Assembly: GCA_900472785.1 (NCBI GenBank)
Contig: UCJH01000009.1
Span: 10,382 to 74,381 of the forward strand
Origin: Hyphomicrobiales bacterium
Lineage (GTDB): Bacteria > Pseudomonadota > Alphaproteobacteria > Rhizobiales > Rhizobiaceae
Direction of reading: 5' to 3'
Length of the DNA: 64,000 nucleotides
The notes beneath the pieces were generated by a model. It saw only the letters and a list, made by a program, of their open reading frames with translations, ran no database searches and was not told the DNA's origin. Positions 42,153 to 60,903 of this stretch are shown in pieces (within the stretch, counting starts at the first letter, position 1; every line of letters starts with the position of its first letter). Position numbers and translations under genes: made by a program.

Positions 42153-42243
42153 TATCCGTCGTGCACGATGTGTGACTTGGTAAGTTTGGGTATCGCTGGA
42201 TGCGCCTCGCACTGCTAGTCTCATTGCAATGCATGGGGGAATC

Positions 42244-44058
42244 ATGGGCCAGACCGCAATCGATCTCTATTCTGGGTGTGGAGGCATGTCGGCCGGAGCT
42301 TCGGCAGCGATACCCGACCTCGAAGTCAAATGGGCGCTCGACATCGACAAGAACGCTTCCCGGACGTTTAAAAATGCTCATCCAGAAGCGATTGTCGATT
42401 GCTGTGACGTTTCGCTGGTTTCCGCGACAGATGTAGTGGCGAGGGCGGGGATCGACAAGATCGATTGGTTCTTCGCTGGGCCGACCTGCCAGGCCGTCAG
42501 CACAATGGGCGTGTTCCATCTCGAAGATCCGCGCAATGCGCTGTTCGTTCATTTCATCCGGTTGCTTGACGGGTTCACCGCCGTCGGTCGAAAGCCTCGC
42601 CATGTCGTGATGGAGAACGTTCCTGGCGTGGTCTACGGGCGCAATCTCATCATTGTGAAGGAGCTGTTTAAGCTCTTTGCCGAGCGCGGGTACCACGTCT
42701 TTGCCGACGTCGTGAACATGGCGGATTACGGTCTCCCTCAGCTCCGGAACCGCTTCATCCTCGTTGCCACCGTCGATGAGATTCCTCCCACCTTTCCAAG
42801 CCACACACACGCTCCTGTCGCTTCCAAGGATCTCCACGAGTATGTTTCGGTTCGGGAGGCGATTGCGGATCTCACGGAAGATCGAGTTGAGCCGACCGTG
42901 GCGAAACTTTCGGAGCAAGTCGAGGGAACGCCATTCCAGCGCTTCGTGAGAAACAACTATGGGCTCGCGCCAAACCATCACGCCAACAAGCTCTCAGAAG
43001 TCAACCGGAAGCGCGTCTCCCATGTGCCGCAGGGAGGTTGCTGGAAGGATATTCCGCCGGAGTGCCTTCCGGACAGGTTTCGCCGAGTTCGCTTGACAGA
43101 CTACGCCACGCTCTATGGTCGTCTTCACGAGGCTTCTCCGGCCTACACGATATCGGCCGGGTTCAGCAACGTGACATCTGGCTGCTTTACCCATCCGATC
43201 CACGATCGCGCACTTACGGTAAGGGAAGGGGCCCGATTGCAAGGCTTCCAAGACGCGTACGAGTTTCTCGGGCCCCGCGAGGCGCAGTATCGCCAGGTCG
43301 GCAACGCGGTGCCGCCGTTCTTTATGAAGCATCTGGTCGAACACATCCAAAGCGGAGCCACTGGCGAACCTGCCAGGATTACATCAGATGTTCTCGACAG
43401 CGGTCGGAAGCTGCCTCCGATGGTTAAGCGCTTCATGAACAAGAGAAACGACTCGGCAAGGTCTCGAGACGGATACGGTGGCGGGACATACTGGCCAGCG
43501 GGCTGGGGCGAGCCCATTCCGGCTGATGCCGTTGCAGCCAATGGCTATCGCCTTACAGACACGCCTCTGCGCTATCGCCGCCGCGACGAGTGGCGCGTGC
43601 ACCGTGATCGTTTCACGAACCAGAATATCATGGAGGTTTATGACGAGCAGCGCCTCAGGACAGTGCCGATCGGGTCGGTGGCTCTACCTCTTGTAAAGGA
43701 GGGCGACGTTGATGCGATCGATCGCGCCATCGTTCAGTTGCTGGCCATTGTGGGATCGAGAGGCGATCACCTGGAGATTGCCTCTCCGGTCCGCTACCTG
43801 CGCGCACGAATGAAGCTTCTCCACGAGGAGCTGGGTGAGAATGCAGCATCATGCCTGCCTGCGATGACCATCATCGATGAGACGGAGATCATCCGCTTCG
43901 GCCATTATGAAAACGAGACGTACTTCGGCCATCTGGCGTTTGAGGATCAAGCGATTGCTGGTGAACGTCTGATCGCAGGACCACATCTTGTTCTGCACTG
44001 GAGCTCGGTCGTTACAGGAAAGACTGGTTCGAGCGAACATATGTCCACTCAAGGTTGA
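42244..44058 (+). CDS. druM: Druantia type II cytosine-C5 DNA methyltransferase DruM
   Basis: 604 residues. The N-terminal ~375 residues form a C5-MTase: motif I DLYSGCGGMSAG (7-18), motif IV FAGPTCQAVS with catalytic C82, motif VI VVMENVPG (E124), motif VIII region QLRNRFILVA, and motif X VGNAVPPFFM. The usual PCQ is TCQ here. The last ~230 residues are an extra domain seen in no simple MTase. GGGGGAATC precedes ATG 42244 (ATG 42229 is the alternative). It heads the operon druM-druF-druG-druE and presumably marks self DNA; the next gene starts 64 bases later. Confidence 0.85.
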   Translation: MGQTAIDLYSGCGGMSAGASAAIPDLEVKWALDIDKNASRTFKNAHPEAIVDCCDVSLVSATDVVARAGIDKIDWFFAGPTCQAVSTMGVFHLEDPRNALFVHFIRLLDGFTAVGRKPRHVVMENVPGVVYGRNLIIVKELFKLFAERGYHVFADVVNMADYGLPQLRNRFILVATVDEIPPTFPSHTHAPVASKDLHEYVSVREAIADLTEDRVEPTVAKLSEQVEGTPFQRFVRNNYGLAPNHHANKLSEVNRKRVSHVPQGGCWKDIPPECLPDRFRRVRLTDYATLYGRLHEASPAYTISAGFSNVTSGCFTHPIHDRALTVREGARLQGFQDAYEFLGPREAQYRQVGNAVPPFFMKHLVEHIQSGATGEPARITSDVLDSGRKLPPMVKRFMNKRNDSARSRDGYGGGTYWPAGWGEPIPADAVAANGYRLTDTPLRYRRRDEWRVHRDRFTNQNIMEVYDEQRLRTVPIGSVALPLVKEGDVDAIDRAIVQLLAIVGSRGDHLEIASPVRYLRARMKLLHEELGENAASCLPAMTIIDETEIIRFGHYENETYFGHLAFEDQAIAGERLIAGPHLVLHWSSVVTGKTGSSEHMSTQG

Positions 44059-44122
44059 TATCGCTTGCGCCGATGGTGGTTGTGCTCGACCTTATATAGG
44101 GAGGGGCGATTCGGGGGGTACG

Positions 44123-46558
44123 GTGGCCAGTTTCGAAGAGGAATGTATCGAGAGGTACTTCCTTATACCAGGAAATAACGGTCCTGTTGGCAGCATCTAC
44201 ATTGCAGACGAGGATCTTCCGGAGCTTTTCGGGGTCACCGATCTGGATGAGGCGCGGCGTCTCTTTGTGCGATCGCTCCCGCCCATGTCCATCCTGCGTG
44301 ACTACCTGGCCGGGCATATGACCCTGCTGCCGGGTCGCATATCGCCGGCTCTCAAGATACTCCTTTTTCTTTGCTGGATGCAGACAACGAAGACCCGGGT
44401 GAAAGGAGACCGGGAGTTCCGTGAAATGTTCGAAAGCCATACCGGTTACAAACCAGCTAATATGAATGGTCTGAACGGTATGTGGGATCGTCTTCGCGAT
44501 CACCTAAAGGCAGTCTACGATGTCGATCTCGACCTTCCCGACATCTATCCGTACGTCCAGATCGGTCGGACCCTACGTATCGCGTTCCCAACGTGGCGGG
44601 ACAAGGAAGTACTCAGGAAGCTACGCGACGATCTCAGACATGACCTGCTTCTCGACCCTTTAACTGTTTCGGGAAAAGTCTCGACTTCCCGCCACGTGTG
44701 GGACGAAAAGATGCCTTCACTCGAATACAACTTTCAGATTTTCGAGCGGGCACGGAAGCGGGGTGGGCGCGAATTCGTTGATACGGCGTTCTGGCACGCG
44801 TGGTATTCTGTCGTGGCCGAAAAGAACACGCTAGAAGAGCTTGAGGTAGTTGAGAGTGATTTCGGCGAGTATCGGCTCTTCGTCGTATCTCCAGTCGGCG
44901 ACCGTAAACCGATTTCCGATCCAGAGCAGGCCAGCGCCGCGGTGCCGAAGCTTCTGGCAAAAGCCATCAAGGACGGAAAAGTATTTCTGGAGAGCCTGGG
45001 CTTCGGCAAGTTTCGTGCCCAGACCAAGCTAGCTTCGTCCACCGTCCTGATGCGGAAGTCGAAGCTGTCGGAACAGCTCTCGGACACAATCAGGTTCTCT
45101 GCTTCCATCAATCACACCTGGGTACTGGCTTCCTTCAGAGACAGCCTCGGACAAACCCCAGCCGCATCAGGTAGCAGAGAGTTCGGCTGGCACGATGGCA
45201 TCAGGGTTGGTGGCGGTTATCTGGGTCGCGCGCCACTGACGCCATTAATTGCCGGGCCGTTGCCGTCAGCAATCTCGGTCGTGGTTTCGGGCGAACCTGT
45301 CGATCTGATCCGGGTGGAGAACGCAATGGCGCTTGCGACGGGTACTTATTCCGGCATCGCGCTGGCGAAAGGACCCGGCGGCTCCCATGAAATACTTATG
45401 GTTCCCCGTGCCAGCGAAATCGGGGATGCACGAAGGTTGGCATTCGATCTTGCGAACGACATTCCTGAAGACGAATTCCATTTTGGCACCGCTCCATCCA
45501 TTCTGGCAGTATTTGAGCGATGGAAGGGAGAGCGATCAACACCGTCGCACGAGCTCATCACGATTTCCGAGGCGCTGTATGAGCGAACTGCTAGAGGACT
45601 TCCGCTTTCTGAAGCGGTTGAGATAGTTCGAAAGGGTATTTCACGGACCGACAGCGCTCCCTCCGAGTGGGAAATACTGCGCTCATTTGCGGATGCCGGA
45701 TGGTTCGAATCTACTTTCCAGCGACGGTACCCGGCTAGGCGCCTCTTGCAGCGTCAACTGTCACACTCCCTAGTCGGTGATGACGCGATCACGATCCATG
45801 GCCCGACACCATTGGCCGTCCTAGACCGGCTCCGAGTGGCAGCGATTGCGACAGGTGGCACCCTGGAAGAGTGGTTCGGGCCGTCGGAGTGGGTACTACC
45901 CCGATATCTCATCCGCACTCCGGATTTGCGCTCGCAGCAGGAATTTCTCGATCGCGCAGCGTTGCCGCCCGCTCCCTCATTTGTCCAGGCGGAAGCCGAC
46001 AAGGCCGATACTGGCGATGTCCACGGATATGAGATCGTCGGCAAACTTCGCGAAGATCGAGGGTATTTTGCAGCCAGCTTCGCCTCTGAGATGGTCGGTG
46101 GCCTTTATCGCCTCGACAGACCGGGATCGAACAGCCATTTTCTGTACCGCTCGGTCATCGATGGCAAACAGGATCAGAATTACTTGTCGCCTTCGGTGGC
46201 TTTACTATCCCACCGCCTTAGAACAGGTGGCGCGCTGTTTACGCTGGAAAGAAACGCACTGTCGGCGATTCGAGCGAGGACGTATCTTCCTTCCAGTTGG
46301 GCCCGGTGGCTCTCGAACTCGTGCCTCTGTAACGCAGGTCCAATGCGTGAGAAGGGTGGATGGCGCTACCAGTATCCGGTCGTCGGCCCCACTGTCTCAG
46401 CGATAGCGAAATTGCTCCCAGTTCAGACGTCTGAATCCACCACCACGCTCTGGATCGACAGATTCCTGCTCTCCGTATCGAACCGCGAGCGGGCCATTCA
46501 CGACAGTCGCGCAAGGAGAGTTCGTTCAGCAGCGCCGCGCATAAACGAGAAGAGTTAG
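44123..46558 (+). CDS. druF: Druantia type II protein DruF
   Basis: 811 residues if translation starts at GTG 44123 (behind GGGGGGTA). An open frame reaches back to 43988 but overlaps druM. No enzymatic motif or membrane segment is recognisable. The protein has a basic N-terminal part (RLRDHLKAVYDVDLD, ARKRGGREFVDTAFWH) and a C-terminal beta-rich part (YFAASFASEMVGGLYRLDRPGSNSHFLYRSVIDGKQDQ). Assignment rests on order and size: a large unknown protein between a C5-MTase and a second unknown plus a giant DUF1998 helicase is the type II Druantia layout. druG starts 3 bases after the stop. Confidence 0.7.
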   Translation: MASFEEECIERYFLIPGNNGPVGSIYIADEDLPELFGVTDLDEARRLFVRSLPPMSILRDYLAGHMTLLPGRISPALKILLFLCWMQTTKTRVKGDREFREMFESHTGYKPANMNGLNGMWDRLRDHLKAVYDVDLDLPDIYPYVQIGRTLRIAFPTWRDKEVLRKLRDDLRHDLLLDPLTVSGKVSTSRHVWDEKMPSLEYNFQIFERARKRGGREFVDTAFWHAWYSVVAEKNTLEELEVVESDFGEYRLFVVSPVGDRKPISDPEQASAAVPKLLAKAIKDGKVFLESLGFGKFRAQTKLASSTVLMRKSKLSEQLSDTIRFSASINHTWVLASFRDSLGQTPAASGSREFGWHDGIRVGGGYLGRAPLTPLIAGPLPSAISVVVSGEPVDLIRVENAMALATGTYSGIALAKGPGGSHEILMVPRASEIGDARRLAFDLANDIPEDEFHFGTAPSILAVFERWKGERSTPSHELITISEALYERTARGLPLSEAVEIVRKGISRTDSAPSEWEILRSFADAGWFESTFQRRYPARRLLQRQLSHSLVGDDAITIHGPTPLAVLDRLRVAAIATGGTLEEWFGPSEWVLPRYLIRTPDLRSQQEFLDRAALPPAPSFVQAEADKADTGDVHGYEIVGKLREDRGYFAASFASEMVGGLYRLDRPGSNSHFLYRSVIDGKQDQNYLSPSVALLSHRLRTGGALFTLERNALSAIRARTYLPSSWARWLSNSCLCNAGPMREKGGWRYQYPVVGPTVSAIAKLLPVQTSESTTTLWIDRFLLSVSNRERAIHDSRARRVRSAAPRINEKS

Positions 46559-46561
46559 TAC

Positions 46562-48637
46562 ATGTCAGTTTCCGAGAAACCCATATATCAGATCATTCGT
46601 CATGCTCGAGATGGTGTTGCTGTGATCGCTGCGGTCAAGGATGGCGACGGAGCCTCAGGACAGGTGCGCGAAACTAAAGATCCTCGAATGATGTTGGGTG
46701 CGGTCGGTTCATTTTGGCAGGTGACGGGCGAGAAAAAGGAACCGAAGCTTGCATTAGAGAATGGAGACGTCGCAGCGTCGAACCGATCTTGGAGACCGCA
46801 ACAACTGATCGTGCCCATTCGAGCAAGCTCGCAGTTCGAGCTGCCTGCGACAGTCGAGCAATTCCTCGATCCTGGTAGGCACGAGGCGCGATCATTCTCG
46901 TCTGCAGTTCAGCTCTCTGTCGGTTATAGCCCCAAAGACAAAGATTTCGAAGGAACTGTCGCTCTTCTCAGGACCGGCAATCTCCCCATCCCTGGGAACG
47001 CCACCATCACCGCCATTGAAGTGAGACCTGGAGCCTGGGTCACATCTCAAATCTCACGACACAAGTCTGACCTTTACGGCTTCGACGCCGGGGCCTCCAT
47101 CCGGTCAATCACGGTTTCCGGCATCGCCAACCGGGTGGAGACCATCAAATTGCCGAACGGCCTTGTGGTGTTCGCAACCCAGCCGAACTGGTCCGTTGGC
47201 GAGGCAGTGGATCTTCGATCTTCGAGCGAGATAGTAGAAGCGGCGGAGATGTGGCTGTCTCGAGCGCGCCAGTCAGTAGGCTCCGCCCCAGGCTCCGAGG
47301 ACGACCTCGCGGAGGGACTGCGGAAACACCTCGCAAGCACCATCGAAGCGAACGAGAAGGCCGACTTAATTGCTTCGATCAAATTGCTGGCGGGCAGAGA
47401 GCCGCTTCTCGATATCCTCCCACAGATCATGCTTCGTGAACCTCTGTTGCAGGAACGGCTGAAAGCGTTCGAGCACGAAGAGCGAGACCGTGTAAGGAAC
47501 TCCACACGCGCCAGGGTGGATGCCGAGCTTAAAGAGGAGCAGCTCCGCCTGACCGCGATAAGGAACGAGTTGGCCGAGGCAGAGAGCAGGCTCTCCCTTG
47601 TTACCCATCGAGAGGCGCTCTTGCGTGTCGAGAGCGAAAAACACGACGAGAGCATACGAGAGAGGGTGGCAGAGGCTGCTCGACAGATTACGGAGGCATC
47701 CAGCACCCAGTCGCGCGATATTCGTGCCGAGGTCGAAAAGCTCAAAGAAATGATCGTGGGCATCGCACGTCCGACACCAACGCCGGAGGCATCCAGTTCG
47801 GCCGATGTCGGGAGCGCAAGGATGGAGCCGGATCCGAGTTCTGAACCCGTAACGGCCGAAGTAGTCGGACGTGTGGAAATGGTGGCAGACGAAGGGCGAA
47901 GCGGCATCATCGCAGCTCTCCGCCAGGCCAGCGGTTTGCCAGCGGGCCACGTTGCCGGGATCGTTATGCAAGCAACGGACGGCATTCCCGTTCTAATCGG
48001 CACGAAGGCATCCGCGTTTGCCGCTGATCTCGCGACAGCCATCGGTGGCGACGATGCCGCGGTGGTATTTTGTGACCCAACGCGAATATCCTGGCAGGAT
48101 CTTCTCCAAGATGAGTCTTCAGGGTTGGCTGCAGCAGTCTCCCGAGCGAGGGCGAATCCGGAAATACTGATGCCAGTTGCCATATGTAATATTACCAGCG
48201 GTCCATGCGAGTACTGGATCCCGCAGTTCATGGAATCCAGGCGCATCGGACGGATACCACGAAACCTCGTAATTTTTGCGAGTGCGGGCGTAGACGGGAT
48301 GCGCGTATCGATGCCCGACTCCATCCTGCATCACCTGATGCCTGTGCTGGTTCCAGAGGTCGCGAAGCCAGTGCGGAAGCTGTATTCCGGACCATGGCCT
48401 GCAGAGCTGGAACCAAACAGGGGCAGGCTTGCTGAAGCAAGGGACCTCCTGTCAGACCGAGGCGATATAGATGGTGCTGTCCTGGACAGAAATACTCGAG
48501 CGCTGTCTCGTATTCTCCCCGGGGCAGAAATGGCTGCCGTAGCCGACCTGTTCGCCAGCAATGCCCTCTGGCTCGCTTCACTCGGAGCGGAAGGCAAGCA
48601 CGAGTTCAATAAATACTTCAAAAACATCGAGGGCTGA
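46562..48637 (+). CDS. druG: Druantia type II protein DruG
   Basis: 691 residues. The middle (about 310-400) is a long charged coiled coil (RARVDAELKEEQLRLTAIRN, and EVEKLKEMIVGIARPTPTPE before a Pro-rich break). The C-terminal half holds an alpha/beta domain with VLIGTKASAFAADLATAIGGDDAAVVFCDPTRISWQDLL and NLVIFASAGVDGMRV that looks like an ATPase-type sheet but lacks a Walker A loop. GAAGAG precedes the ATG. Two bases separate its stop from druE, so it is surely in the same operon. Role in the complex unknown. Confidence 0.7.
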   Translation: MSVSEKPIYQIIRHARDGVAVIAAVKDGDGASGQVRETKDPRMMLGAVGSFWQVTGEKKEPKLALENGDVAASNRSWRPQQLIVPIRASSQFELPATVEQFLDPGRHEARSFSSAVQLSVGYSPKDKDFEGTVALLRTGNLPIPGNATITAIEVRPGAWVTSQISRHKSDLYGFDAGASIRSITVSGIANRVETIKLPNGLVVFATQPNWSVGEAVDLRSSSEIVEAAEMWLSRARQSVGSAPGSEDDLAEGLRKHLASTIEANEKADLIASIKLLAGREPLLDILPQIMLREPLLQERLKAFEHEERDRVRNSTRARVDAELKEEQLRLTAIRNELAEAESRLSLVTHREALLRVESEKHDESIRERVAEAARQITEASSTQSRDIRAEVEKLKEMIVGIARPTPTPEASSSADVGSARMEPDPSSEPVTAEVVGRVEMVADEGRSGIIAALRQASGLPAGHVAGIVMQATDGIPVLIGTKASAFAADLATAIGGDDAAVVFCDPTRISWQDLLQDESSGLAAAVSRARANPEILMPVAICNITSGPCEYWIPQFMESRRIGRIPRNLVIFASAGVDGMRVSMPDSILHHLMPVLVPEVAKPVRKLYSGPWPAELEPNRGRLAEARDLLSDRGDIDGAVLDRNTRALSRILPGAEMAAVADLFASNALWLASLGAEGKHEFNKYFKNIEG

Positions 48638-48639
48638 AC

Positions 48640-51600
48640 ATGTTTGATCCGATTGGTGGCTTCGACAGAATGATCGAGCAGTTCCTAGTGTATCTCGATA
48701 CGGCGTACCGCATCGATGACCCAACAGTGTCAGCTACCCGGAGAAGCCTTCTGACCAGCGCAGGTCAGCTCGCTCTCGACCCGATCTTTGAAACAGTGCC
48801 CCGATATCGTGGCGCGGGGCATGGGCTCGAAACATTGATAGACACACCCGATGGAAAACTCCCGGGCTTCGAGCGCCATCAAAGAGAGGCTTTCGTTGAA
48901 CTGGCTTTGGCGGGGCTCTTCGACCGCGATAAAGAGAGCAAGGTTCTTAAGGGGGCCTACGAGCCGTATCTCCATCAGATCCAGATGCTCACCAAGGGCG
49001 TGTCCGACGGTACGCCGGGGATCGTGACGTCTGGAACTGGCTCCGGGAAGACAGAATCTTTCATGCTTCCGATCCTCGCCCAGCTCGCTAAGGAGGCGAC
49101 AACCTGGCCAGCTCCGAACGCGCCTGTTGATGACACCTGGATCGGAGACGACGGTAAGTTCGTTCATCATCGCAGGCACGAGCATCCGGGCCGCCCCAAA
49201 GCAATCCGCGCGCTCATCCTTTATCCGCTCAACGCACTGGTCGAGGATCAGATGGTCCGCCTTAGGAAGGCTTTGGACTCCCAGGATGCCCAGGAGGTCA
49301 TGGCAAAGCACTTCAAAGGCAACCGTATCTTTTTCGGCCGCTACACAGGAAAGTCGCCTGTTACAGGCTTCGAGACGCACCCACGGAGAAGCAACGACAA
49401 AGGTTGGAAAAAGCGGAACAGGCGCGCTCGTACCGAACTGCGGGATGAGCTTCGACGCTATCAGTCCATCCATGCACGGCTCGATGCAGATACTGATCCT
49501 GACCTCCGCTACATATTCCCCAGCACAAACGGCAGCGAATTGATCACGCGATGGGACATGCAGGCGACGCCGCCGGACATTCTCGTAACCAACCAATCGA
49601 TCCTAAATGCAATGTTGGTACGCGAGGTTGAGAGCCGTATCCTATCAGATACGAGGGAATGGCTGACCGCCGATGACAATGCCCGTTTCTATCTCGTTCT
49701 TGACGAACTCCACCTCATCCGCGGTTCCGCGGGCGCAGAGATGGCTGGTATGCTCAAGGTGCTCCTTGAACGGCTAGGGCTTGCGGATCCGGCACACGCC
49801 CACAAACTCCGGATCCTATCGTCATCCGCGTCGCTCCCTGTGGACGGCGATAACACCGCCGCGAGCATCGAGTATCTTAAGAACATGTTCGGCGATGCGG
49901 GCACTGCCGGCGCCAAGGATTTGGATGAGGCATGGAAAGGTAGCGTGGTTACGGGCGTCACCGTTCCCGTTGACCACCCAGAGCGTCGACCGTCGCGGGA
50001 AGCGTTGGTCGAACTGGCTCAAGCTCTCAAGACTATCGACTACAAGAAAGATCCAGCAGGCATCCTGGAAAAGTTCATCGCGGCGGCACGCTCGATCGAC
50101 GGCGGTGCGCAGGATGTGTCGGCCGACCTCATGCTCGAAGCCACTTCGGTTGCCTCCTCCATGCTCGACTTCGCAATGCAGGACAAGAGCAAGCCTGGTA
50201 GCAAGCGCCCCCGGTCCGTGAAGGAGATCGGTGAAATCTTATTCGAGGAAGACGACCGCGATGCTGTTCGGGGTCTTCTTGCGCTTCGGGCAATTCCCGA
50301 TCTTCCTGAAAGTGTACTGCCGCCACACCTACGTCCCTCGGGACGGGCGACTGTCGGCCTGCCGGGTTTCAGGATGCATACGTTTGTTAGAAACATCGAG
50401 GGCTTGTTTGCTTCTGTCGCCATGGGCGATGGCGGGCGTGTGGCATGGGGGAAACCCAGTATCGAGCGCGGGCAAGACTACGATTGGACGCTTGGCTCAA
50501 GAAAGCGCCTCTTCGAGATGCTTTACTGCGAAGCGTGTGGTGACCTATATCTCGGCGGCAAGCGCGGAGAGGTGGAACCTGGGAAGTCGGCACGCGTATC
50601 CCTTCTCCCAGCGCCCCAAGAACTCGAAAAACTCCCAGAGAGCGCATCGTCGCTAAGGTTCGAGGATGCCAGCTATCGGGAGTTCGCACTCTTCTGGCCC
50701 TATCAGAGCACGCCCGAGCGTGAGATCCGGCACGAGCGCTCGCCCTATGAATGGAAACCGGGATATCTCGATCCTCGTACGGGCATTGTCAGCGACACAC
50801 CGCATGACGACGCCGTTCGCGGCCATCTTCTTCGATGGAGGGGACCCGATAAGTTCCAGTCCCGCGATATGGAAGATGATGGAACCGCGGTTCCGTTCTG
50901 CTGCGCGAAGTGCGGAACCGATTACTCCGGCCGATATCGGCAACCGAACTCGAAGAAGCGGGAGGGACGTCTCTCTCCGATCCGAAGCTTCCGAACCGGC
51001 TTCGGAAAGACGTCGCAGCTTTTAGCAACCGAACTCGTGGCGGCTCTGAAATCGCAAGGGGGCGACGGGAAGCTCGTCGCATTCTCCGACAGCCGTGAAG
51101 ATGCTGCCACGCTAGCTCTGGATGTGGAGGTTCAACATCAGCGCGACCTACGACGAGAAATTCTCGTGACTGCTGCAACACGGATGGCGAACGATCTCAG
51201 TTTCACTGAGGACGATGCGGCCGAGCTCGCGCAACTGAAGGCCACCATCGGTGCTTTGATGGGTGCGGACGAGGACTACGACCACCTTGTACCAAAGGAG
51301 AAGGAACTGAAGAGGAGAAAGGCGGCGGCCGGACATCCTCCTAGCGTTCCCTTAAACCAGTTGTTCGAATTCGCTCGAGAGAGTGTGAGTTATGACGCCC
51401 GGCCCATCCTTTCAGAGTTGATGAAGCTTGGCTCGACCCCTGTCGAGGGGGCTGACACGATTCACACACGGGTGAAAAACAGGCCGTGGTTCGAATTCTT
51501 TGAGAAGAAGGGCATCCATGTATCCTGGAAGCAGGAGCACCTTCTTGAGAGGGTTTCGCTTATCAACCGCGCCCGCGAGAAGGTCCAGGAGGGGCAGCCA

Positions 51601-54495
51601 CCCGAGGCGACCGACCTGCTTTTCAGCAAGACGTACTTTGCGCTGGAGGAGACAGGCCTCGGTTGGCCAAGCTTCTATGGGCCGCGCGAATATACCGCAG
51701 AGATGTCGCGCGATGATGCTATGCTTAGAATCTTCGCGGACGCGTATCGAATTACACCCAACCAGTTCCAGGAGGAGGCACGCACGGACTGGCGCACGGC
51801 CTTTGATATGTTGGGCGGCCCAGATAGCCGCATGCGTCGCCTTCTATCGAAAATCTTCCAGCATCCAGAAAAAGAGTGTGACGATTTCCTAAACAAGCTT
51901 CGCACTGAACTCAAGCAAACCCGAGCGGCAGGCTCGATCGACATAAGCATGCTGTTCTTTCGAGCGGCCCCGCCATCGGGGAAGGCATGGAGATGCGAAC
52001 GGTGCGGGCGAGTGCACCTCCATGAGGGATTCGGGAAGTGTACTAGGTGTGGCGAAACCCTCACCCGTCCAGAAGACCTGAATGCGTCAACGATTGCAGA
52101 TGCCAACTTTCTTGGACGGAGGGTAATCCGCTCTGTTAGCGGTGAGGAACCCCTATTTCGGTTGAAGTGCGAGGAACTGACGGGGCAGACCAACGATCCC
52201 GCCGAGCGTTTGCAACAATTTAAGGGCGTGTTCGTTAAAGGCGATGGAGAGGGCGACGATGAGTTCGAGTGGCGAAAGCTCTTTGACACGGTTGATATGC
52301 TTTCAGTCACGACGACCATGGAGGTAGGCGTCGATATCGGGTCCCTTCAGGCCGTGTATCAAGGCAACATGCCGCCGCAACGTTTTAATTACCAGCAGCG
52401 TGTCGGTCGCGCTGGCAGAAGAGGGCAGGCGTTTTCGACGGTACTGACAGTCTGCCGAAGCAAGAGTCACGACATCCACTACTTCCATAACCCGATCGAA
52501 ATCACCGGGTCGGCTCCGCCTCCGCCGTTCATTACGACTGGACTAATCGATATTCCATCTCGCCTTCTGCGGAAGTTCTGGCTGGTGGAGGCCTTCCAAC
52601 TACTCAGGAATAGCGCCGACGGTGACTGGGCTGGTGACGATGTGGTGCCAGGCGATATCCACGGAGAATTCCTGTACTGCAACGAGTACTTCCGTGACGA
52701 TCGACAGTGGCCGAGCAAGCTGTCGGTTGCGCTCGTACAGACTGACCACCGACGCCTCCGGCTTGCGCGGATACTCGCCGATATTTCCGGATGCGAAATA
52801 GAGAAGCTTGAATCGGCCGTCACTGCGGGAACCGTTCTTGCAGCGATTGAGGGCTTAAGGGAGGAGTTCGCTCTTCAGAGCGTTGGCATCGCTGCTGCCC
52901 TGGCCGAGCGAGGAATGGTTCCACTTTACGGCATGCCTACCCGTACACGTAATCTCTATGTCGACCTCAAGAAGGAAAAGGGCGGCTATCAACCGGAGTG
53001 GGATACGATCGACCGAGACCAGGACATGGCGATCTTCGACTTCGCTCCGGGTAGCGTTAGAACGCGAGAAAAATTGCGTCATCGTTGCATCGGCTTCACG
53101 GGAGTGCTGCCTGACGTCCATGAACACGGAACGGATTTTAACGCGCCAGTCTCGCCATTCAGTCCGTGGTGGAAAGACGACTTCAGACTCCGTTTCTGTG
53201 CAGGTTGCGGCGCTTGGAGCAGAGGAGGCAACGAGACGACAACATGCCAGTCGTGCGGGCTACCAACAAGTGAGCAGGGAATCCGGTGCGTCACACCTGC
53301 GGCGTATCGAACCGAGTTCAGACCAACCGACGAAAACCTGTCGGGTAAGGTCGGACAGCGAATGACGCTGGCTAGCATGGGAAAAATCGACAATCAGAGG
53401 ACCGATGGGAACCTTCGGGTGAATTTTGCTGAGCAGTCCGAGATATTCCTGGTCAATCCCGGCTTCAGGGATGAGAACGAGTTCACTGGCTTTCAGATTC
53501 AAAAGGCTACCGATACCAGTGCAAAGCGAATTGCCTGGTGGCCCAAGTCCAAACCCCTCTTGAAGCTAGGCGGCCAGGCAGTAAGCGAAGAAGTGCTGGC
53601 CGAGGATCAGGATAACCGCTTTAAGGCTGAGGACGAGGAGCCGATCAGCGCGTGGCTCGCATCTACGAAGATAACGAACTCCCTGCAGATCAGCCCGATC
53701 AAGTTGAACGTTCACCTACGTCTGCTCGATATGGACGTCGGACTTTCAAATCGCCGCGATCCTTCTCGCACAAGCGTGCGTGCAGCAGCGATCTCCGCCA
53801 CCGAGCTGTTGGTGCAACGGGCTGCGCTTGAACTTGACATCGCCCCCGAGGAGTTCGACGCGCTCGCTCCAAACATCATGGTATTGGGATCAGGGGAACG
53901 CCTACCTTACCTGCAGATATCAGATGCCCTGCCCAATGGCTCGGGCTTCTGCCGCCATCTTCTCGGGGACAGCACGATTCCTGTTTCGGGTCTCATAAGA
54001 AGCATCCTCGATGACCCTGCGGAGTGGCCAAGGACAGCAGTTGGAAGCGTCGAGCACATGGGTAAATGCGGCTCGTCTTGCTACAAATGCGTCCAGCGAT
54101 ACAACAACCGAAATTTCCACGGGCTGCTCGACTGGAGACTTGGTCTTTCGTATCTCAGGGCTATATCCGACCCGACGTATGAATGCGCATTCGATGGGAA
54201 TATCAGCTACTTCGAACTCTGCGATTGGATCATGACGAGCTACGATCTTGCTCAGCAGACGCGAACGTTCATACCTGGTAACATCGCTGCCAGCATCGAC
54301 GGGAGACCGGATCTCGCGACCTTCTCGCTCGATGATCGCCAAACAAAATGGGGTGTTGTCGTCCACCCACTGTGGGACACGAAAGCTCTCTTCTCGCAGC
54401 TAGGCATCGATCGAAACTATGTAGCCGTCGACAGTTTCGAACTATCACGCAGGCCGCTGATCGCCCTGCAGAGAGCCCGATCGATCGCTAAGTGA
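48640..54495 (+). CDS. druE: Druantia helicase DruE (giant SF2 helicase with DUF1998)
   Basis: 1951 residues. The SF2 core includes Walker A TSGTGSGKTESF (130-141, K137), DELH box (D355-H358), SSSASLPVDG as motif III, and motif VI QQRVGRAGRRGQ starting at residue 1252. Several Cys pairs look like zinc ribbons: CEACG, CCAKCG, CERCGR with CTRCGE, and CAGCG with CQSCG. The DUF1998 part near the C-terminus has KCGSSCYKCVQRYNN (C1810, C1814, C1817). Size and architecture match DruE, the subunit shared by all Druantia types. It starts 2 bases after druG and ends directly against the convergent vsr. Confidence 0.88.
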   Translation: MFDPIGGFDRMIEQFLVYLDTAYRIDDPTVSATRRSLLTSAGQLALDPIFETVPRYRGAGHGLETLIDTPDGKLPGFERHQREAFVELALAGLFDRDKESKVLKGAYEPYLHQIQMLTKGVSDGTPGIVTSGTGSGKTESFMLPILAQLAKEATTWPAPNAPVDDTWIGDDGKFVHHRRHEHPGRPKAIRALILYPLNALVEDQMVRLRKALDSQDAQEVMAKHFKGNRIFFGRYTGKSPVTGFETHPRRSNDKGWKKRNRRARTELRDELRRYQSIHARLDADTDPDLRYIFPSTNGSELITRWDMQATPPDILVTNQSILNAMLVREVESRILSDTREWLTADDNARFYLVLDELHLIRGSAGAEMAGMLKVLLERLGLADPAHAHKLRILSSSASLPVDGDNTAASIEYLKNMFGDAGTAGAKDLDEAWKGSVVTGVTVPVDHPERRPSREALVELAQALKTIDYKKDPAGILEKFIAAARSIDGGAQDVSADLMLEATSVASSMLDFAMQDKSKPGSKRPRSVKEIGEILFEEDDRDAVRGLLALRAIPDLPESVLPPHLRPSGRATVGLPGFRMHTFVRNIEGLFASVAMGDGGRVAWGKPSIERGQDYDWTLGSRKRLFEMLYCEACGDLYLGGKRGEVEPGKSARVSLLPAPQELEKLPESASSLRFEDASYREFALFWPYQSTPEREIRHERSPYEWKPGYLDPRTGIVSDTPHDDAVRGHLLRWRGPDKFQSRDMEDDGTAVPFCCAKCGTDYSGRYRQPNSKKREGRLSPIRSFRTGFGKTSQLLATELVAALKSQGGDGKLVAFSDSREDAATLALDVEVQHQRDLRREILVTAATRMANDLSFTEDDAAELAQLKATIGALMGADEDYDHLVPKEKELKRRKAAAGHPPSVPLNQLFEFARESVSYDARPILSELMKLGSTPVEGADTIHTRVKNRPWFEFFEKKGIHVSWKQEHLLERVSLINRAREKVQEGQPPEATDLLFSKTYFALEETGLGWPSFYGPREYTAEMSRDDAMLRIFADAYRITPNQFQEEARTDWRTAFDMLGGPDSRMRRLLSKIFQHPEKECDDFLNKLRTELKQTRAAGSIDISMLFFRAAPPSGKAWRCERCGRVHLHEGFGKCTRCGETLTRPEDLNASTIADANFLGRRVIRSVSGEEPLFRLKCEELTGQTNDPAERLQQFKGVFVKGDGEGDDEFEWRKLFDTVDMLSVTTTMEVGVDIGSLQAVYQGNMPPQRFNYQQRVGRAGRRGQAFSTVLTVCRSKSHDIHYFHNPIEITGSAPPPPFITTGLIDIPSRLLRKFWLVEAFQLLRNSADGDWAGDDVVPGDIHGEFLYCNEYFRDDRQWPSKLSVALVQTDHRRLRLARILADISGCEIEKLESAVTAGTVLAAIEGLREEFALQSVGIAAALAERGMVPLYGMPTRTRNLYVDLKKEKGGYQPEWDTIDRDQDMAIFDFAPGSVRTREKLRHRCIGFTGVLPDVHEHGTDFNAPVSPFSPWWKDDFRLRFCAGCGAWSRGGNETTTCQSCGLPTSEQGIRCVTPAAYRTEFRPTDENLSGKVGQRMTLASMGKIDNQRTDGNLRVNFAEQSEIFLVNPGFRDENEFTGFQIQKATDTSAKRIAWWPKSKPLLKLGGQAVSEEVLAEDQDNRFKAEDEEPISAWLASTKITNSLQISPIKLNVHLRLLDMDVGLSNRRDPSRTSVRAAAISATELLVQRAALELDIAPEEFDALAPNIMVLGSGERLPYLQISDALPNGSGFCRHLLGDSTIPVSGLIRSILDDPAEWPRTAVGSVEHMGKCGSSCYKCVQRYNNRNFHGLLDWRLGLSYLRAISDPTYECAFDGNISYFELCDWIMTSYDLAQQTRTFIPGNIAASIDGRPDLATFSLDDRQTKWGVVVHPLWDTKALFSQLGIDRNYVAVDSFELSRRPLIALQRARSIAK

Positions 54496-54909
54496 CTACC
54501 TCTGCTCCTGAGCCTTCCTGAAGGTGGCGACGATCGTGTCAACGATCGTCGCCACCTCTTCATGTTCCCAGAATCGCAGCACGATCCAACCCAGCGCTTC
54601 AAGGTGCTTGCAAACTCGAGCATCTCGAGTGCGGTTCTTTTCAATCTTATCCAACCAGAAATCGGAGTTTTTCTTAACCGAAGGGGGATGTACCGGACAT
54701 CCGTGCCAGAAGCACCCATCAAGAAATACCAGGATCTTTCTGCCCGGTATGGCAAGATCACAAGTGATCCGCCTCATTTCTGGAGCGGGATAGTGAATGC
54801 GATATCGAATGCCGCGCGCGTAAAGCGCCGACCGAACGGATTTTTCGAAAGGGTTGTCCCGGCCATGCGTGTTCTGCATTCGTCGACGGACAGATGGTGA
54901 TGTCTCCAT
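54496..54909 (-). CDS. vsr: Very short patch repair endonuclease
   Basis: 137-residue Vsr. D51 in TCDLAIPGRKI is the catalytic Asp and H69 in FWHGCPVHPP the second active-site residue, matching E. coli numbering. The metal-binding PSVRRRMQ-type N-terminal helix and KIEKNRTRD are present. It nicks T:G mismatches left by deamination of 5-methylcytosine, so it would limit mutations caused by DruM. Its stop directly abuts that of druE with no base between; the two genes are convergent. Confidence 0.92.
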   Translation of the reverse strand: METSPSVRRRMQNTHGRDNPFEKSVRSALYARGIRYRIHYPAPEMRRITCDLAIPGRKILVFLDGCFWHGCPVHPPSVKKNSDFWLDKIEKNRTRDARVCKHLEALGWIVLRFWEHEEVATIVDTIVATFRKAQEQR

Positions 54910-54977
54910 CCGTGCTATTTAATTTCGCGACGTGTCACCAAAAAGGCGGACCATCAGCGCTTGACGCCATCCTGCGT

Positions 54978-54992
54978 GTTCTATATTCGTTC
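54978..54992. promoter_or_regulatory. LexA (SOS) box between vsr and the TnsA-like gene
   Basis: GTTCTATATTCGTTC is an exact GTTC-N7-GTTC site, the alphaproteobacterial LexA operator, with the AT-rich middle usual for real sites. It lies in the 184-base divergent region, 102 bases before the TnsA-like ATG and 69 bases before the vsr ATG. Confidence 0.65.
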
Positions 54993-55093
54993 CCGCCCAT
55001 GAACACCCTCGCGCGCCACTCGATACGAATACGCTGACGCACTCCGGCTAGTCCGGTGTCGCCCTGTTCTGCGTTTCATTTTCGAGGGATGCC

Positions 55094-55708
55094 ATGAAGG
55101 TAGTCTCTGATGACCGAAGGGACGATGCTGTCCCTCACAAGGTCACGCTTTCACCGATTTACACACCGATGGCGACCATCAAGTGCGATGGCCGCGCACA
55201 ATTCCGATCCCAGCAGGCGAGGGACTTCGCTTGCCTGCTGGATCTCGACCCCGACGTCGCCCGATGGAGCACGGCACCGCCGCTGCTCCGGAACGGCGAC
55301 GACGAGTACCAGGTCGATTTCGTCGTCCTGACAGAGGGCGGATCCTTCCTGATCGACGTCGGCCAGGAGGAGCCGATGCCGCCGATCTGGCTGTCCGCCG
55401 AGATCGAATCCATGGGGCATCGATACCGATCTGTGGCGATGATCGACTTCGCCGACAGCGTCCGCCTCCGGAACGCGAAGGATCTTCTGCGGTATGGATT
55501 CTACCGCCCGCCGCTTGGCGACAGGATTCGTCTGTTGGCCGGCCTCGATGAGATGGGGTCGCTCACCATCGCGGAATGCCTGTCAGCAATTCAAGAAGGA
55601 CGGCCGATGCCGACGCTGGCATCACTAATCCTTCAAGGATTCCTGGAGGTCGATCTCGACGATGACCTGCTGAGTCCGGAGAGCCAGGTTCGCCGGATAC
55701 GAGGATGA
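55094..55708 (+). CDS. TnsA-like protein with degenerate nuclease site
   Basis: 204 residues. Residues ~36-100 follow the TnsA endonuclease layout: SQQARDFACLLDLDPDVARW, then YQVDFVVLTEGG and FLIDVGQEE. In active TnsA-like enzymes the first block carries a catalytic Glu (SxxER) and the last ends in a Lys (VEVK). Here they are Ala and Gly, while the middle Asp (VDF) remains. This suggests a TnsA fold used for binding rather than cutting. The C-terminal third (LTIAECLSAIQEGRPMPTLASLILQGFLEVDL) looks like a winged-helix remnant. It is 52 bases before the FtsH-like gene and 102 bases after a LexA box. Confidence 0.65.
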   Translation: MKVVSDDRRDDAVPHKVTLSPIYTPMATIKCDGRAQFRSQQARDFACLLDLDPDVARWSTAPPLLRNGDDEYQVDFVVLTEGGSFLIDVGQEEPMPPIWLSAEIESMGHRYRSVAMIDFADSVRLRNAKDLLRYGFYRPPLGDRIRLLAGLDEMGSLTIAECLSAIQEGRPMPTLASLILQGFLEVDLDDDLLSPESQVRRIRG

Positions 55709-55760
55709 CGCAACGCGCCCATGAGCGCCGACCTCATCATCTTCAATTCGGGATCACACA

Positions 55761-57674
55761 ATGAAAAACGTACTTCGCGACCGCGCAGGCTTCTCGCTGC
55801 CGGAATTTCTCGCCTATGCAAGCATCAGTCGGGCCATGCGGCCTTACAGACGCGTTCCGCATTTCGCAATCGGCCTCGTCCTAGAGAACTGGGAACGCAA
55901 GACCAGCTACGTACAGGCTGCGGTCATGTTCATCGATAGGAAGTCGGACTACCGCTACCAGGATCACGTCAAGATCTTCGATGAGACCCGTTCGGACCAC
56001 CACATCGAGGCGGTGATGGACATGCTGGAGCACAAGCAGACCATCATCTTCTTCCGGTCGGAGGATGCTATCCCGCATGATCTCCGCTTCGCTCTCGACA
56101 CCGTCGTTAAGATCGAGCCACCCGACATCCGCCAGGCACGCGGGGTGGTCAGATGGGGCTACAAGACGACGGTCACTGACGACCAGGCTGAAGCCCTGAT
56201 CAATTGCGACTGGCGGCGGCTGAAGCTAGCGATGACATGGGGCCGTCCCATGCCGCGCGTTCTCGCGATCGTCGAGAAGATGGTACAGGCAGGCGCACCA
56301 CGTGTACCAAGCGCACCAACTCGAGGTGGCGAGGCCCTTGCCGATATCAGGCTCGAAGATATGGAGGGATACGGTGACGCGAAAACGTGGGGTCTCGATC
56401 TCGCTCGGGATCTCGAGGAGTGGCGGGCAGGGAAGATCACGTGGGACGACGTCGACCGCGGTGTGCTCCTTTCGGGGCCACCCGGAACTGGGAAGACGAT
56501 CTTCGCGAAGGCCTTGGCCGCCTCCTGTGATGCAAGTCTCGTAGTCGGCTCATATGCGAAATGGCAGGCGAAGGGCCACCTCAACGACTTTCTCAAGGCG
56601 ATGCAGAGAAGCTTCCAAGAGGCTAGGAAGAACGCACCCGGCATCCTGTTCATCGACGAGATCGACGCTTTCGGGTCGAGGGACAACGTCAGCACGCAGA
56701 ATGAATCCTACGACACCAAGGCAATCAACGGCCTGCTTGAGCAGCTCGATGGCCTCGAAGGGCGCGAAGGGGTCATTGTCGTCGCCGCCACCAACAATCC
56801 GCACAAGATCGACGCCGCGATCCTCCGCTCCGGTCGCCTAGATCGGCAGGTGAGGATTCCGCTTCCGGATCTGAAAGCTCGGACGGCCATCTTCCGAATG
56901 CACTTGCGGGGCGCGTTCGATGAAGGCCGCTGTGGGGACTTTGCAGAACTTTCTGAGGGAGCCTCTGGCGCCGACATCCAGAAGATCGTCCGCAACGCCC
57001 GCCGTCGGGCAAGGGGGCTTCGAAGGCCCGTCTCGCTTGCGGACGTCCTGCTGCACCTTCCGATCCCGGCGCAGATCCCTCCGGAGACGTTGAGGGTCAA
57101 TGCCGTTCACGAGATCGGTCATGCGGTCGTGGGCGTCGTTCTCGGCATGGAACTGGTCAGCGTCGAGATCTCATCACGGATCCTTTTGACGGCGCAGAAC
57201 CAGCCCGTCGGCAAGGCGACATTCGGTCGCCGCCCCTGGGCGCGCCGCACCAAGGCGCACTATCTCGATGCCATCGCCATGGGGCTGGGAGGTATGGCAG
57301 CGGAACAGTTGCTGATGGGATGTCACGATGATGGCGTCGCGGGAGGCCGGGGTTCAGATCTGTACGACGCGACCCGCACCGCAATCCTGCTGGACCGCTC
57401 GTTCGGGATGGGCGACGGGCTGGCATCGCTCGGCGATATTTCAGAAGCACCGCTGGTCGATATCAGTCGGATGGATCGAAGTCTCCTCGCAAGGGCGGAC
57501 AAGATCCTGCGGGAGCAGCTTGAGCGCGCCACGGAAATCCTGGAGCGGCATCGGCCAGTCTGCGAAAGGCTGGTGGATGCCCTGGTGGCGGGGCTCGAAC
57601 TGTCGGGGCAGGAGGTTCTGGATGCACTCGATGCCGATGGTCACATCGAGCCTTGGGCACTGCGATCAGGCTAG
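55761..57674 (+). CDS. Soluble FtsH-like AAA+ protease with M41 domain
   Basis: 637 residues. A unique ~200-residue N-terminal domain with no membrane helix replaces the FtsH anchor. The AAA+ module shows Walker A GPPGTGKT (239-246), Walker B ILFIDEIDAFGSR (D299, E300), SRH with ATNNPHKIDAAILRSGRLDRQ, and the sensor-2 region. The M41 peptidase has HEIGH (450-454) and a third zinc ligand D533 in GRGSDLYDAT, all as in FtsH. An active cytoplasmic ATP-dependent protease is expected. Paired with the TnsA-like gene (52-base gap) and probably SOS controlled. Confidence 0.85.
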   Translation: MKNVLRDRAGFSLPEFLAYASISRAMRPYRRVPHFAIGLVLENWERKTSYVQAAVMFIDRKSDYRYQDHVKIFDETRSDHHIEAVMDMLEHKQTIIFFRSEDAIPHDLRFALDTVVKIEPPDIRQARGVVRWGYKTTVTDDQAEALINCDWRRLKLAMTWGRPMPRVLAIVEKMVQAGAPRVPSAPTRGGEALADIRLEDMEGYGDAKTWGLDLARDLEEWRAGKITWDDVDRGVLLSGPPGTGKTIFAKALAASCDASLVVGSYAKWQAKGHLNDFLKAMQRSFQEARKNAPGILFIDEIDAFGSRDNVSTQNESYDTKAINGLLEQLDGLEGREGVIVVAATNNPHKIDAAILRSGRLDRQVRIPLPDLKARTAIFRMHLRGAFDEGRCGDFAELSEGASGADIQKIVRNARRRARGLRRPVSLADVLLHLPIPAQIPPETLRVNAVHEIGHAVVGVVLGMELVSVEISSRILLTAQNQPVGKATFGRRPWARRTKAHYLDAIAMGLGGMAAEQLLMGCHDDGVAGGRGSDLYDATRTAILLDRSFGMGDGLASLGDISEAPLVDISRMDRSLLARADKILREQLERATEILERHRPVCERLVDALVAGLELSGQEVLDALDADGHIEPWALRSG

Positions 57675-57686
57675 CATGGAACAGCG

Positions 57687-58379
57687 TCAGCGCCCGAACA
57701 GCCAGCCGAGTATTCCGCGTCGCTTCTTCTCAGGCGGTGACGCGGACGGCAAACTTTTCTCGGCGATCTCGCGGTATAGATTGCCAAATAGACGTTCGCT
57801 CCTCTCGTCCCGTTCCTGCTCCTCATCCGCTTTGATCCTCTGTATGTCAGCGGCCAGCATGTCCTCGTAGAGTTCAGAGGCTGTGGATTGGTCTTCGGCC
57901 TCGCCCCAGAGCTCCCGCATCCATTTGCAATCGGTGACACCGAGAAGAGATAGGCGATCGCATCCGACACGGTCATATGAGAGGTCGAGCGCGGCAAGAC
58001 GAGCGTAAGGAACCCGCTGGATGTGGCCATACCCGGCATAGCTGTCCATCGCTGCCAGGTGATGTAGTTCCCGCAGCTCAGCCTCGTATCCCGTCTTCGC
58101 TTTCCGTGCGGCCCGTATCTTCATTCGTAGCGAGACAGCCATCTTGCGCCAGGCAGCGGGCAGCGGAAGGTGGCGACGTGCCATCGCGTACCGTTTGTCG
58201 GGATCGTCCTTTATGCGGTTAAGCGCGTCGTACCAGAATTCACCGTTCTCAGGAGCTGGCCCCGCAGCCTGCGCAACCAAGGTACCGTCGGGTTGCTTGC
58301 TGCCCACCATCTCCCACATCCCGCGATCAAGGGCGCGAGCCTCCTCATCTGTCGTGGTGTCGACCCAGAGCATATCCAT
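57687..58379 (-). CDS. Hypothetical protein of the accessory region
   Basis: 230 residues with the start at ATG 58379 (GAGAAG upstream; the frame extends to 58433 over the preceding gene). Mostly helical and charged, no signal peptide. Contains WYDALNRIKDDPDKRYAMARRHLPLPAAWRKM and a basic C-terminal end KKRRGILGWLFG that may touch the membrane. Its C-terminus converges on the FtsH-like gene, 12 bases apart. Ten bases downstream of the two-helix membrane protein gene, so probably an operon. Not recognised. Confidence 0.6.
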   Translation of the reverse strand: MDMLWVDTTTDEEARALDRGMWEMVGSKQPDGTLVAQAAGPAPENGEFWYDALNRIKDDPDKRYAMARRHLPLPAAWRKMAVSLRMKIRAARKAKTGYEAELRELHHLAAMDSYAGYGHIQRVPYARLAALDLSYDRVGCDRLSLLGVTDCKWMRELWGEAEDQSTASELYEDMLAADIQRIKADEEQERDERSERLFGNLYREIAEKSLPSASPPEKKRRGILGWLFGR

Positions 58380-58389
58380 CACTCGCTTC

Positions 58390-58854
58390 TCATGCTCGGA
58401 AGCCAAGCAATGCCCACCGTATCGCCAAGCCAAGCATCAATAGGATGACAGGAGGCAGAACGGCACCCCACAGAGCATCCTGCAGGGTCTCGAACCGAGC
58501 CTTCCTTATCTTTGCGTCCTGGATTGCCGTGGCCTTGGGAATGTAGGCCTCGATAGCCTTCAGGTTATCCTCATGAACCGAGGTCGCTGGGAAGAAGAAT
58601 GCTGTTTCCCGGAGCGCGGTCTTATCGTAGGCAATCTCGTATTCAACGAGCAGCTTTCTCGATTTGAGCTCGCGCGCGGCAGAGATCTTCTCGCCGTATG
58701 GCTCGAGATATTCGGGTTCTCCCTGGCCCATCTTGAAGCCGCCCCAGGCGATGTAGGGGTTCGCCACGCTCTGCCACATGAAAAGCGTCACGACGATGAT
58801 CCAGAGGATGGTCAGAACCACCCAGACCCTGAAAAGACCTCTGCCCCACGTCAT
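58390..58854 (-). CDS. Two-helix membrane protein, function unknown
   Basis: 154 residues. Helix 1 is FRVWVVLTILWIIVVTLFMWQSV (about 8-30) and helix 2 WGAVLPPVILLMLGLAIRWALL (about 129-150), with a ~95-residue soluble loop between them (YGEKISAARELKSRKLLVEYEIAYDKTALRETAFFF). The ATG at 58854 has GGGGAAC upstream; the frame extends to 58911. The pair with the 230-residue gene is unrecognised and may have co-moved with the island. Confidence 0.6.
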   Translation of the reverse strand: MTWGRGLFRVWVVLTILWIIVVTLFMWQSVANPYIAWGGFKMGQGEPEYLEPYGEKISAARELKSRKLLVEYEIAYDKTALRETAFFFPATSVHEDNLKAIEAYIPKATAIQDAKIRKARFETLQDALWGAVLPPVILLMLGLAIRWALLGFRA

Positions 58855-60888: not shown

Positions 60889-60903
60889 GAACAGAAGAAG
60901 AAC
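60889..60903. promoter_or_regulatory. LexA (SOS) box of imuA-imuB-dnaE2
   Basis: GAACAGAAGAAGAAC is an exact GAAC-N7-GAAC site, the reverse complement of the alphaproteobacterial GTTC-N7-GTTC LexA box. It is 68 bases before the imuA start, as expected for the SOS-controlled mutasome cassette. Confidence 0.8.

Follow-up and report, generated by a model that had tools for sequence, protein, structure and literature searches.

A TnsA-like protein lacking catalytic residues is paired with a soluble AAA+/M41 protease behind a LexA-type promoter in Rhizobiaceae

Introduction

The TnsA protein of the transposon Tn7 is a DNA-end enzyme and binds TnsB. AAA+ proteins are tied to proteolysis, or to the handling of transposition proteins, in several described systems: FtsH unites an AAA+ domain with an M41 metalloprotease, the anti-phage system IetAS consists of an AAA ATPase and a subtilisin-like protease partner, and ClpX removes the Mu transposase MuA. 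Here we describe a locus with likenesses to all of these, found in a 64,000-nucleotide stretch of contig UCJH01000009.1 (assembly GCA_900472785.1, Rhizobiaceae; the whole stretch is called the window below). It is a two-gene unit, at C139:65475-68055 in the window's genome, in which a TnsA-like protein and an AAA+/M41 protease stand behind a conserved promoter of DNA-damage type, with a second lock in the message, and it points to an undescribed form of protein clearing from DNA. Our preferred explanation, offered tentatively and short of being called probable, is that the unit is an SOS- and translation-gated adaptor-protease that removes transposition complexes from DNA under damage.

Like Tn7 TnsA (PDB 1f1z and 1t0f, the latter a TnsA/TnsC complex by its title; PF08722; NF033179), the first protein of the unit has the fold, the order of the two domains and the conserved Asp, but it has lost the Glu and Lys positions, has a protease as its gene partner rather than TnsB directly, and lies behind a LexA-type promoter. 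The second protein resembles FtsH in joining AAA+ and M41 domains with all active residues and in finding its best PDB matches there; it differs in being without the N-terminal membrane segment, in bearing a ~180-aa N-domain of its own and in scoring 174 bits, far below the cut-off of 600, against the FtsH equivalog. IetAS likewise couples an AAA+ ATPase with proteolysis in defence islands, and its AAA domain is matched by that of the unit; in the unit, however, the protease belongs to a different class and forms one chain with the ATPase, the partner is TnsA-like, and the boxed promoter and a leader are present. Should our preferred explanation hold, the removal of MuA by ClpX would be a further likeness, with an AAA+ unfoldase acting on a transposition complex; the difference would be that the protease of the unit is a dedicated one, linked to an element and equipped with a decoy TnsA, whereas ClpX is a housekeeping unfoldase.

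To our knowledge no system joins a dead TnsA to a protease, and none was met with among the systems tested; the parts of the pair are known folds. The pair is named as a system by none of the family and defence libraries. Nor was a description of such a pair found among the titles and abstract openings of the open-access PMC literature, a search that left most subscription papers and bioRxiv outside.

A TnsA fold without the catalytic residues

The first gene (55094..55708, + strand) encodes a protein of 204 aa, the proposed adaptor. An earlier note on this DNA, made from the letters alone, had seen in it the layout of TnsA, and structure prediction bears this out. The AlphaFold2 model (mean pLDDT 92) has a nuclease-like and a winged-helix domain. 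Among the 930 PDB matches listed, an E of 1e-3 or lower is reached by four alone, each being a TnsA chain or belonging to a TnsABCD transpososome. The NCBIfam entry NF033179 ('TnsA-like') matches the window protein below threshold, at 25.9 bits for a cut-off of 110, and is matched at E <= 0.01 by 51 of 57 relatives. A Pfam scan of the window protein gave zero matches, PF08722 included, and that family is matched by four of 65 relatives, with a best E of 0.0017. In profile comparisons the similarity to TnsA-like proteins from neighbouring elements, of which two groups were used, spans both domains, covering 97% and 93%.

Conservation was assessed in an alignment of 65 rows, drawn from 73 non-redundant proteins by excluding eight fragments or uncertain starts. 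At the positions that we take to correspond to the catalytic Glu, Asp and Lys of TnsA, the first is Ala, Ser or Val in all 65 rows and the last is Lys in none, while Asp75 is Asp throughout. The replacement of Glu and Lys noticed earlier in the window thus extends to the relatives, and the intact Glu-Asp-Lys set of the TnsA endonuclease is absent. Close to the second acidic site, position 88 holds Asp in 60 rows, Glu in one and Gln in one.

Weaker Foldseek matches of the protein include winged-helix regulators of the MarR type (E above 0.01), which would suit a protein that does no more than regulate the operon or a transposon, binding DNA through its winged-helix part while the protease works alone. 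We hold this to be very improbable. The dead nuclease domain has been retained, with W58 as well as Asp75 invariant in 65/65 rows, and the protein has a joint history with the protease (see below).

A soluble FtsH-like protease

The second gene (55761..57674, + strand) encodes a soluble AAA+ ATPase fused to an M41 (FtsH-like) metalloprotease, 637 aa in all. Residues K245, D299, E300, N345, R356, R359, H450, E451, H454 and D533, which include the HEXXH motif and the third ligand, are invariant in all 59 aligned rows (from 61 non-redundant open reading frames (ORFs) longer than 480 aa; broken copies were excluded); the window protein has the full set of active residues, as reported earlier. The model has a pLDDT of 88 and FtsH structures are its best PDB matches; by sequence alone, the AAA domain is matched best by chains of Cdc48/p97. 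A hydropathy scan places the most hydrophobic 19-residue stretch of the window protein at 452, within the protease domain, in agreement with the earlier reading that a membrane anchor is lacking. Values above 1.6 occur somewhere in 22 of the 59 relatives; of the eight such stretches listed, seven fall at 436-514 and one, in L097 (loci carry L numbers), at 97.

The N-terminal ~180 residues (55761-56330, + strand) form a confidently modelled domain for which no Pfam family was matched, and this domain is a candidate docking site for the TnsA-like protein. The order of its strands and helices hinted at a decayed AAA domain, an idea to which profile comparison gave no support.

A second relative in the same genome, without TnsA (L158, contig C65, 4351-7408), has AAA and M41 as two adjoining genes. 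The two parts are likewise split into neighbouring genes in a TnsA-less relative on a Neorhizobium plasmid (L026:5726-8525).

Co-inheritance and distribution of the pair

Relatives were gathered in two ways. A tblastn search with the TnsA-like protein found 17 plasmid records, 15 of them from Rhizobium or Sinorhizobium, and a profile scan of genome contigs, starting from an alignment of 13 rows, yielded 123 relatives, the best 80 being retained. Plasmid pSymB of Sinorhizobium meliloti USDA1021 is among the carriers of a related unit. Among these 80 the nearest, at 98%, is from a record named Agrobacterium vitis CG118. The 93 loci analysed comprise 79 from genomes, 12 from plasmids, L006 and the window; several of the 93 share one genome or are closely related. 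Left out before this count were the broken L108, L007-L009, which are incomplete or contain a stop, and L001 and L005, which are the window itself; removal of L061 from the protein sets leaves 92.

An AAA/M41 ORF adjoins the TnsA-like gene on the same strand in 77 of the 87 loci with at least 2.2 kb downstream, and tblastn raises this to 81. The co-conservation on which the earlier note had staked its reading is therefore found across genomes. ORF and tblastn searches detected no protease downstream in L028, L041, L078, L082, L083 and L107 (6/87). In L033, L037, L061 and L092 the protease is split over two reading frames, and in L032 the match covers its first half only. Distances within the two protein families are correlated (Mantel r 0.79 over 74 loci; reached in 0 of 2000 permutations, the best of which gave 0.09), also among diverged pairs (0.63). 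Co-inheritance of the dead TnsA and the protease is thus supported by computation. In ten of 11 comparisons with near relatives, homology around the pair reaches upstream as far as -133 to -139, where the -35 element lies, as if promoter and genes travelled together; in the eleventh, with L053, it begins within the gene.

The phyletic distribution is patchy. Among whole genomes, a match to the TnsA-like profile is found in 29 of 199 from the family and in six of 385 from the class; one of these six is the genome of the window, and the matches in the other five are weak (E 3e-10 to 9e-4). A single-protein query matches four of 199 genomes of the order, all from the same family. The same kind of query against viral contigs gave 15 stretches fitting a pattern and no true relative.

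A LexA-type box at the promoter

GTTC-N7-GTTC is given as the LexA motif of alpha-Proteobacteria in PMC3323433. An exact copy, GTTCTATATTCGTTC, lies at 54978..54992 (+ strand), ahead of the TnsA-like gene, as the earlier note had pointed out. Taken alone the box is weak evidence: the window holds four matches where 2.2 are expected, a number reached by 21 of 100 shuffles, and the genome holds 180 against 100 for a reversed control pattern. Its conservation is another matter. An exact box occurs within 350 nt upstream in 82 of the 93 TnsA-like loci, compared with 161 of 6000 random 300-nt stretches, which rules out a chance occurrence.

With the box as the anchor of the alignment, the 82 boxed loci show TTGAC at a constant distance from it (each base conserved at 88-95%) and TAT at its centre (87-95%), revealing a promoter with 17-nt spacing and its -10 inside the box. 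In the window these elements are TTGACG at 54961..54966 and TATTCG at 54984-54989, both on the + strand. The combined promoter-plus-box pattern occurs once in the 5.4-Mb genome, at this locus. The same box precedes recA and lexA in this genome but points the other way with respect to the gene, and that orientation is found again in a box at 60889-60903 of the window, in the reverse direction, before an imuA-like gene. As a control, the exact box was sought upstream of nine AAA/M41 loci without a TnsA-like gene and found at none, although one of them offered only 180 nt. Of the upstream regions of tnsA genes, two of 26 contain it; the SOS-type part therefore appears to be the unit, not the transposase. 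From the conservation of the site at the promoter we infer that LexA keeps the unit shut and that damage opens it.

An SOS-type promoter also invites the idea of damage-site clearing, in which the dead TnsA binds ends, gaps or crosslinked sites and the protease degrades stalled or trapped proteins, as in DNA-protein crosslink repair, the link to Tn7 being one of carriage only. A DNA-end enzyme with its nuclease removed would suit such a task, as would an HEXXH protease joined to an AAA+ motor, and genes that we take to be imuA, imuB, dnaE2 and Ku lie nearby here. Yet presence in 29 of 199 genomes is too patchy for housekeeping repair, DNA binding by the TnsA-like protein has to be postulated, and the association with Tn7-like elements is left to carriage. 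We judge this alternative unlikely.

A rare-codon leader is predicted to pair with the ribosome-binding site

Immediately after the box comes a short ORF that, like the pairing described here and the association with Tn7-like elements, goes beyond the earlier note. In the window it is MNTLARHSIRIR, at 54999..55037 (+ strand). All 82 boxed loci have an ATG inside the 21 nt examined after the box, at 3-8 nt in 81 and at 13 in one. From the position of the -10, transcription would start at this ATG or a few bases 5' of it, making the leader ORF near-leaderless. The ORF has 8-14 codons in 78 loci, 18 in one and 27 in three, and the peptides frequently end in IRIR, RIG or LIR. Removal of the three 27-codon leaders and merging of near-identical ones reduced the set from 82 to 79 and then to 66, the window leader being merged with a near relative. 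The codon usage is peculiar: AUA makes up 77% of 117 Ile codons, against 4.4% in the genes of the pair and 11.6% in five window ORFs, and AUA, CGA or CUA is present in 66/66 leaders.

RNAalifold found no consensus structure in an automatic alignment of 70 leaders, and the duplex between the 3' end of the leader and the region before the TnsA-like start was therefore compared between matched and swapped partners. Matched duplexes average -18.9 kcal/mol over the 66 leaders, swapped ones -14.2 and shuffled ones -12.3; none of 5000 permutations reaches the observed mean. Partition-function folding gives a mean probability of 0.65 for pairing between the Shine-Dalgarno window and the ORF, compared with 0.18 in dinucleotide shuffles, and the probability exceeds 0.5 in 54 of 66 leaders versus 14% of shuffles. 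It is 0.0 in six leaders, where the start codon was perhaps wrongly chosen. In the window leader (minimum-energy fold -30.5 kcal/mol), CTCGA of the ORF pairs with TCGAG of the Shine-Dalgarno region, which includes CGAGGG at 55083..55088 (+ strand). The same fold has a G+C-rich hairpin at 55038..55061 (+ strand), directly 3' of the leader stop, with similar hairpin letters in relatives. Rfam searches of the leader at default and permissive thresholds assigned no family, the one sub-threshold match, on the other strand, being judged due to chance.

The pairing of leader RNA with the downstream ribosome-binding site, typical of translation attenuators, is thus found by computation, which supports the ability of the leader to mask that of the first gene. 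The leader is probably a translation attenuator paced by its rare codons, and would switch accordingly.

Short ORFs with AUA-CGA-AUA were also seen ~430 nt before tnsA in L052, L065 and L085, and further in L167 and at C139:92078 (- strand); an example is MLILRIGGFDFSERG. A rare-codon leader upstream of tnsA is clear in a few elements and, since 42% of random stretches pass a loose test for one, is only a lead.

The unit is associated with Tn7-like elements

Within the same 199 genomes, TniQ is found in 23 of the 29 with the unit and in 33 of the 170 without it (Fisher p 6e-10). In 17 of the 29 it lies on the same contig, at most 45 kb from the unit (a limit picked after the distances were seen), where ~2% would be expected for one locus. 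The association is therefore statistical and above chance. Closer to the unit, in flanks of mostly ~6 kb on each side, searches with HMMs made from genes that recur in the neighbourhood detected a TnsB-like ORF in 29 of 92 loci and a Tn7-like gene of whatever kind in 33. TniB and TniQ were named by Pfam, TnsB by a match to an annotated Mu-type transposase of Bosea (E 7e-110) and the neighbouring TnsA through weak PF08722 matches and profile links. A TnsB query found six genomes, 6/6 with the unit, a biased result as the query was taken from a unit-bearing locus. On the contig of the window itself, tniQ-tnsC-tnsB-tnsA occupy C139:85133-91971, 17-24 kb from the pair. The earlier note had proposed a sensor of DNA ends or DNA structure, which the unit may contain; given this association, transposition proteins are no less likely a target than DNA ends in general.

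A search for transposon ends gave two repeats with 22-nt spacing beside a tRNA gene in L047 and similar letters in L043, without a matching second end. The same tRNA gene, with a CAU anticodon, is seen near the unit at L043:8897-8972, L047:8967-9042 and L050:1416-1491; in the first two its 3' end faces the protease gene ~0.3 kb away. By its features it is presumably tRNA-Ile2, which would read AUA, the codon that marks the leader ORFs. The tRNA gene may be an insertion site. In one profile alignment, the proteins in the TnsA position of one group of neighbouring Tn7-like elements (cluster 8; L043:4028-4822 and relatives) are seemingly without the usual Lys.

A possible mechanism

The preferred explanation would work as follows. 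LexA over the -10 would hold the promoter shut until DNA damage opens it. The message would open with a tiny rare-codon ORF whose end pairs with the ribosome-binding site of the first gene, and TnsA-like protein and protease would be well made only for as long as a ribosome sits on that ORF or moves slowly along it. Non-cutting, and with both TnsA domains kept, the TnsA-like protein would bind TnsB, TnsC or their complex on DNA; as an adaptor it would hand these Tn7-type transposition proteins to the cytosolic AAA+/M41 protease, which would pull them off the DNA and degrade them. The two genes would form a mobile unit that is controlled in SOS fashion and has a decoy subunit of its own. What we infer here is the target and the role as adaptor. 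The removal of transposition complexes is favoured since the decoy shares both TnsA domains, TnsA binds TnsC and TnsB, and tnsA itself is mostly without the box. A narrower version strikes us as doubtful: that the unit is the off-switch of a Tn7-like element, in which a decoy TnsA, made only when damage coincides with slow translation of AUA and CGA, feeds transposition complexes to a private protease and so undoes transposition while the host genome is endangered.

The surroundings of the unit suggest a different use. At 42229-54909 the window has a cluster like Druantia type II (a C5 methylase, a weak DruF match, a 691-aa ORF and DruE, the last at 2065 bits), with a gene for a Vsr-type nuclease on the other strand. 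A DruE-like ORF occurs in six of 92 loci, and CBASS and a Kiwa-like gene in other contexts. The unit could accordingly be anti-phage or abortive-infection cargo of Tn7-like elements and defence islands, the TnsA-like protein sensing phage DNA or nucleoprotein and the protease destroying a phage protein or an essential one of the host, with the double lock shielding the cell. Its patchy presence in the family would fit, as would a PADLOC 2023 match to IetA (E 1.9e-24). That match is to the AAA part only, the one part of the pair matched by the models (IetA, TRIP13 and others), whereas no PADLOC model fits the window TnsA-like protein and 57 TnsA-like rows gave three single weak matches. In PADLOC 2023 the two proteins do not both match any one described anti-phage system. 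The viral contigs held no relatives in the single-protein query, and control of SOS type is unusual among known phage defence. We regard defence cargo as rather unlikely.

The removal of transposition complexes is accordingly ranked first, ahead of phage defence, then damage-site clearing and finally a plain regulator. Several observations weigh against it. The TniQ match is missing in six of the 29 unit-bearing genomes, 63 of 92 loci are without TnsB in the flanks searched, and the exact box is missing in 11 of 93 loci (L015, L028, L052, L063, L067, L080, L085, L089, L093, L101 and L103). Joint inheritance by itself could also produce the correlated distances of the two proteins, and the Druantia-like, CBASS and Kiwa-like company is as defence cargo would have it.

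If transposition complexes are indeed the target, the unit would show how an inactivated subunit of a transposase has become part of a dedicated proteolytic system. It would add a new branch to SOS-type control in these soil bacteria, which are related to root-nodule rhizobia, and would offer a testable way into the question of what Tn7-like elements and their hosts do with transposition complexes when DNA is damaged. The proposed two-layer switch, with a LexA-type box across the -10 and a leader of rare codons covering the ribosome-binding site, is interesting on its own.

Other genes near the unit

On the flank opposite the Druantia-like side lie the imuA/imuB-like genes, so that the unit does sit, as the earlier note had it, between a defence system and a mutasome. 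Further along from the imuA-like gene are a dnaE2-like gene and two Ku-like genes (L160:38-8660). At 12 of 93 loci, the window not among them, a calcineurin-type metallophosphoesterase gene lies 3' of the protease on the same strand (e.g. L011:12570-13337). A PIN-like protein is encoded near the unit in 25 of 92 loci (e.g. L040:3820-4434), the one representative tested having a sub-cut-off Pfam match. Convergent with the protease gene of the window is an ORF of 248 aa (57687..58433, - strand), common to the window, L014, L031, L034 and L035 only.

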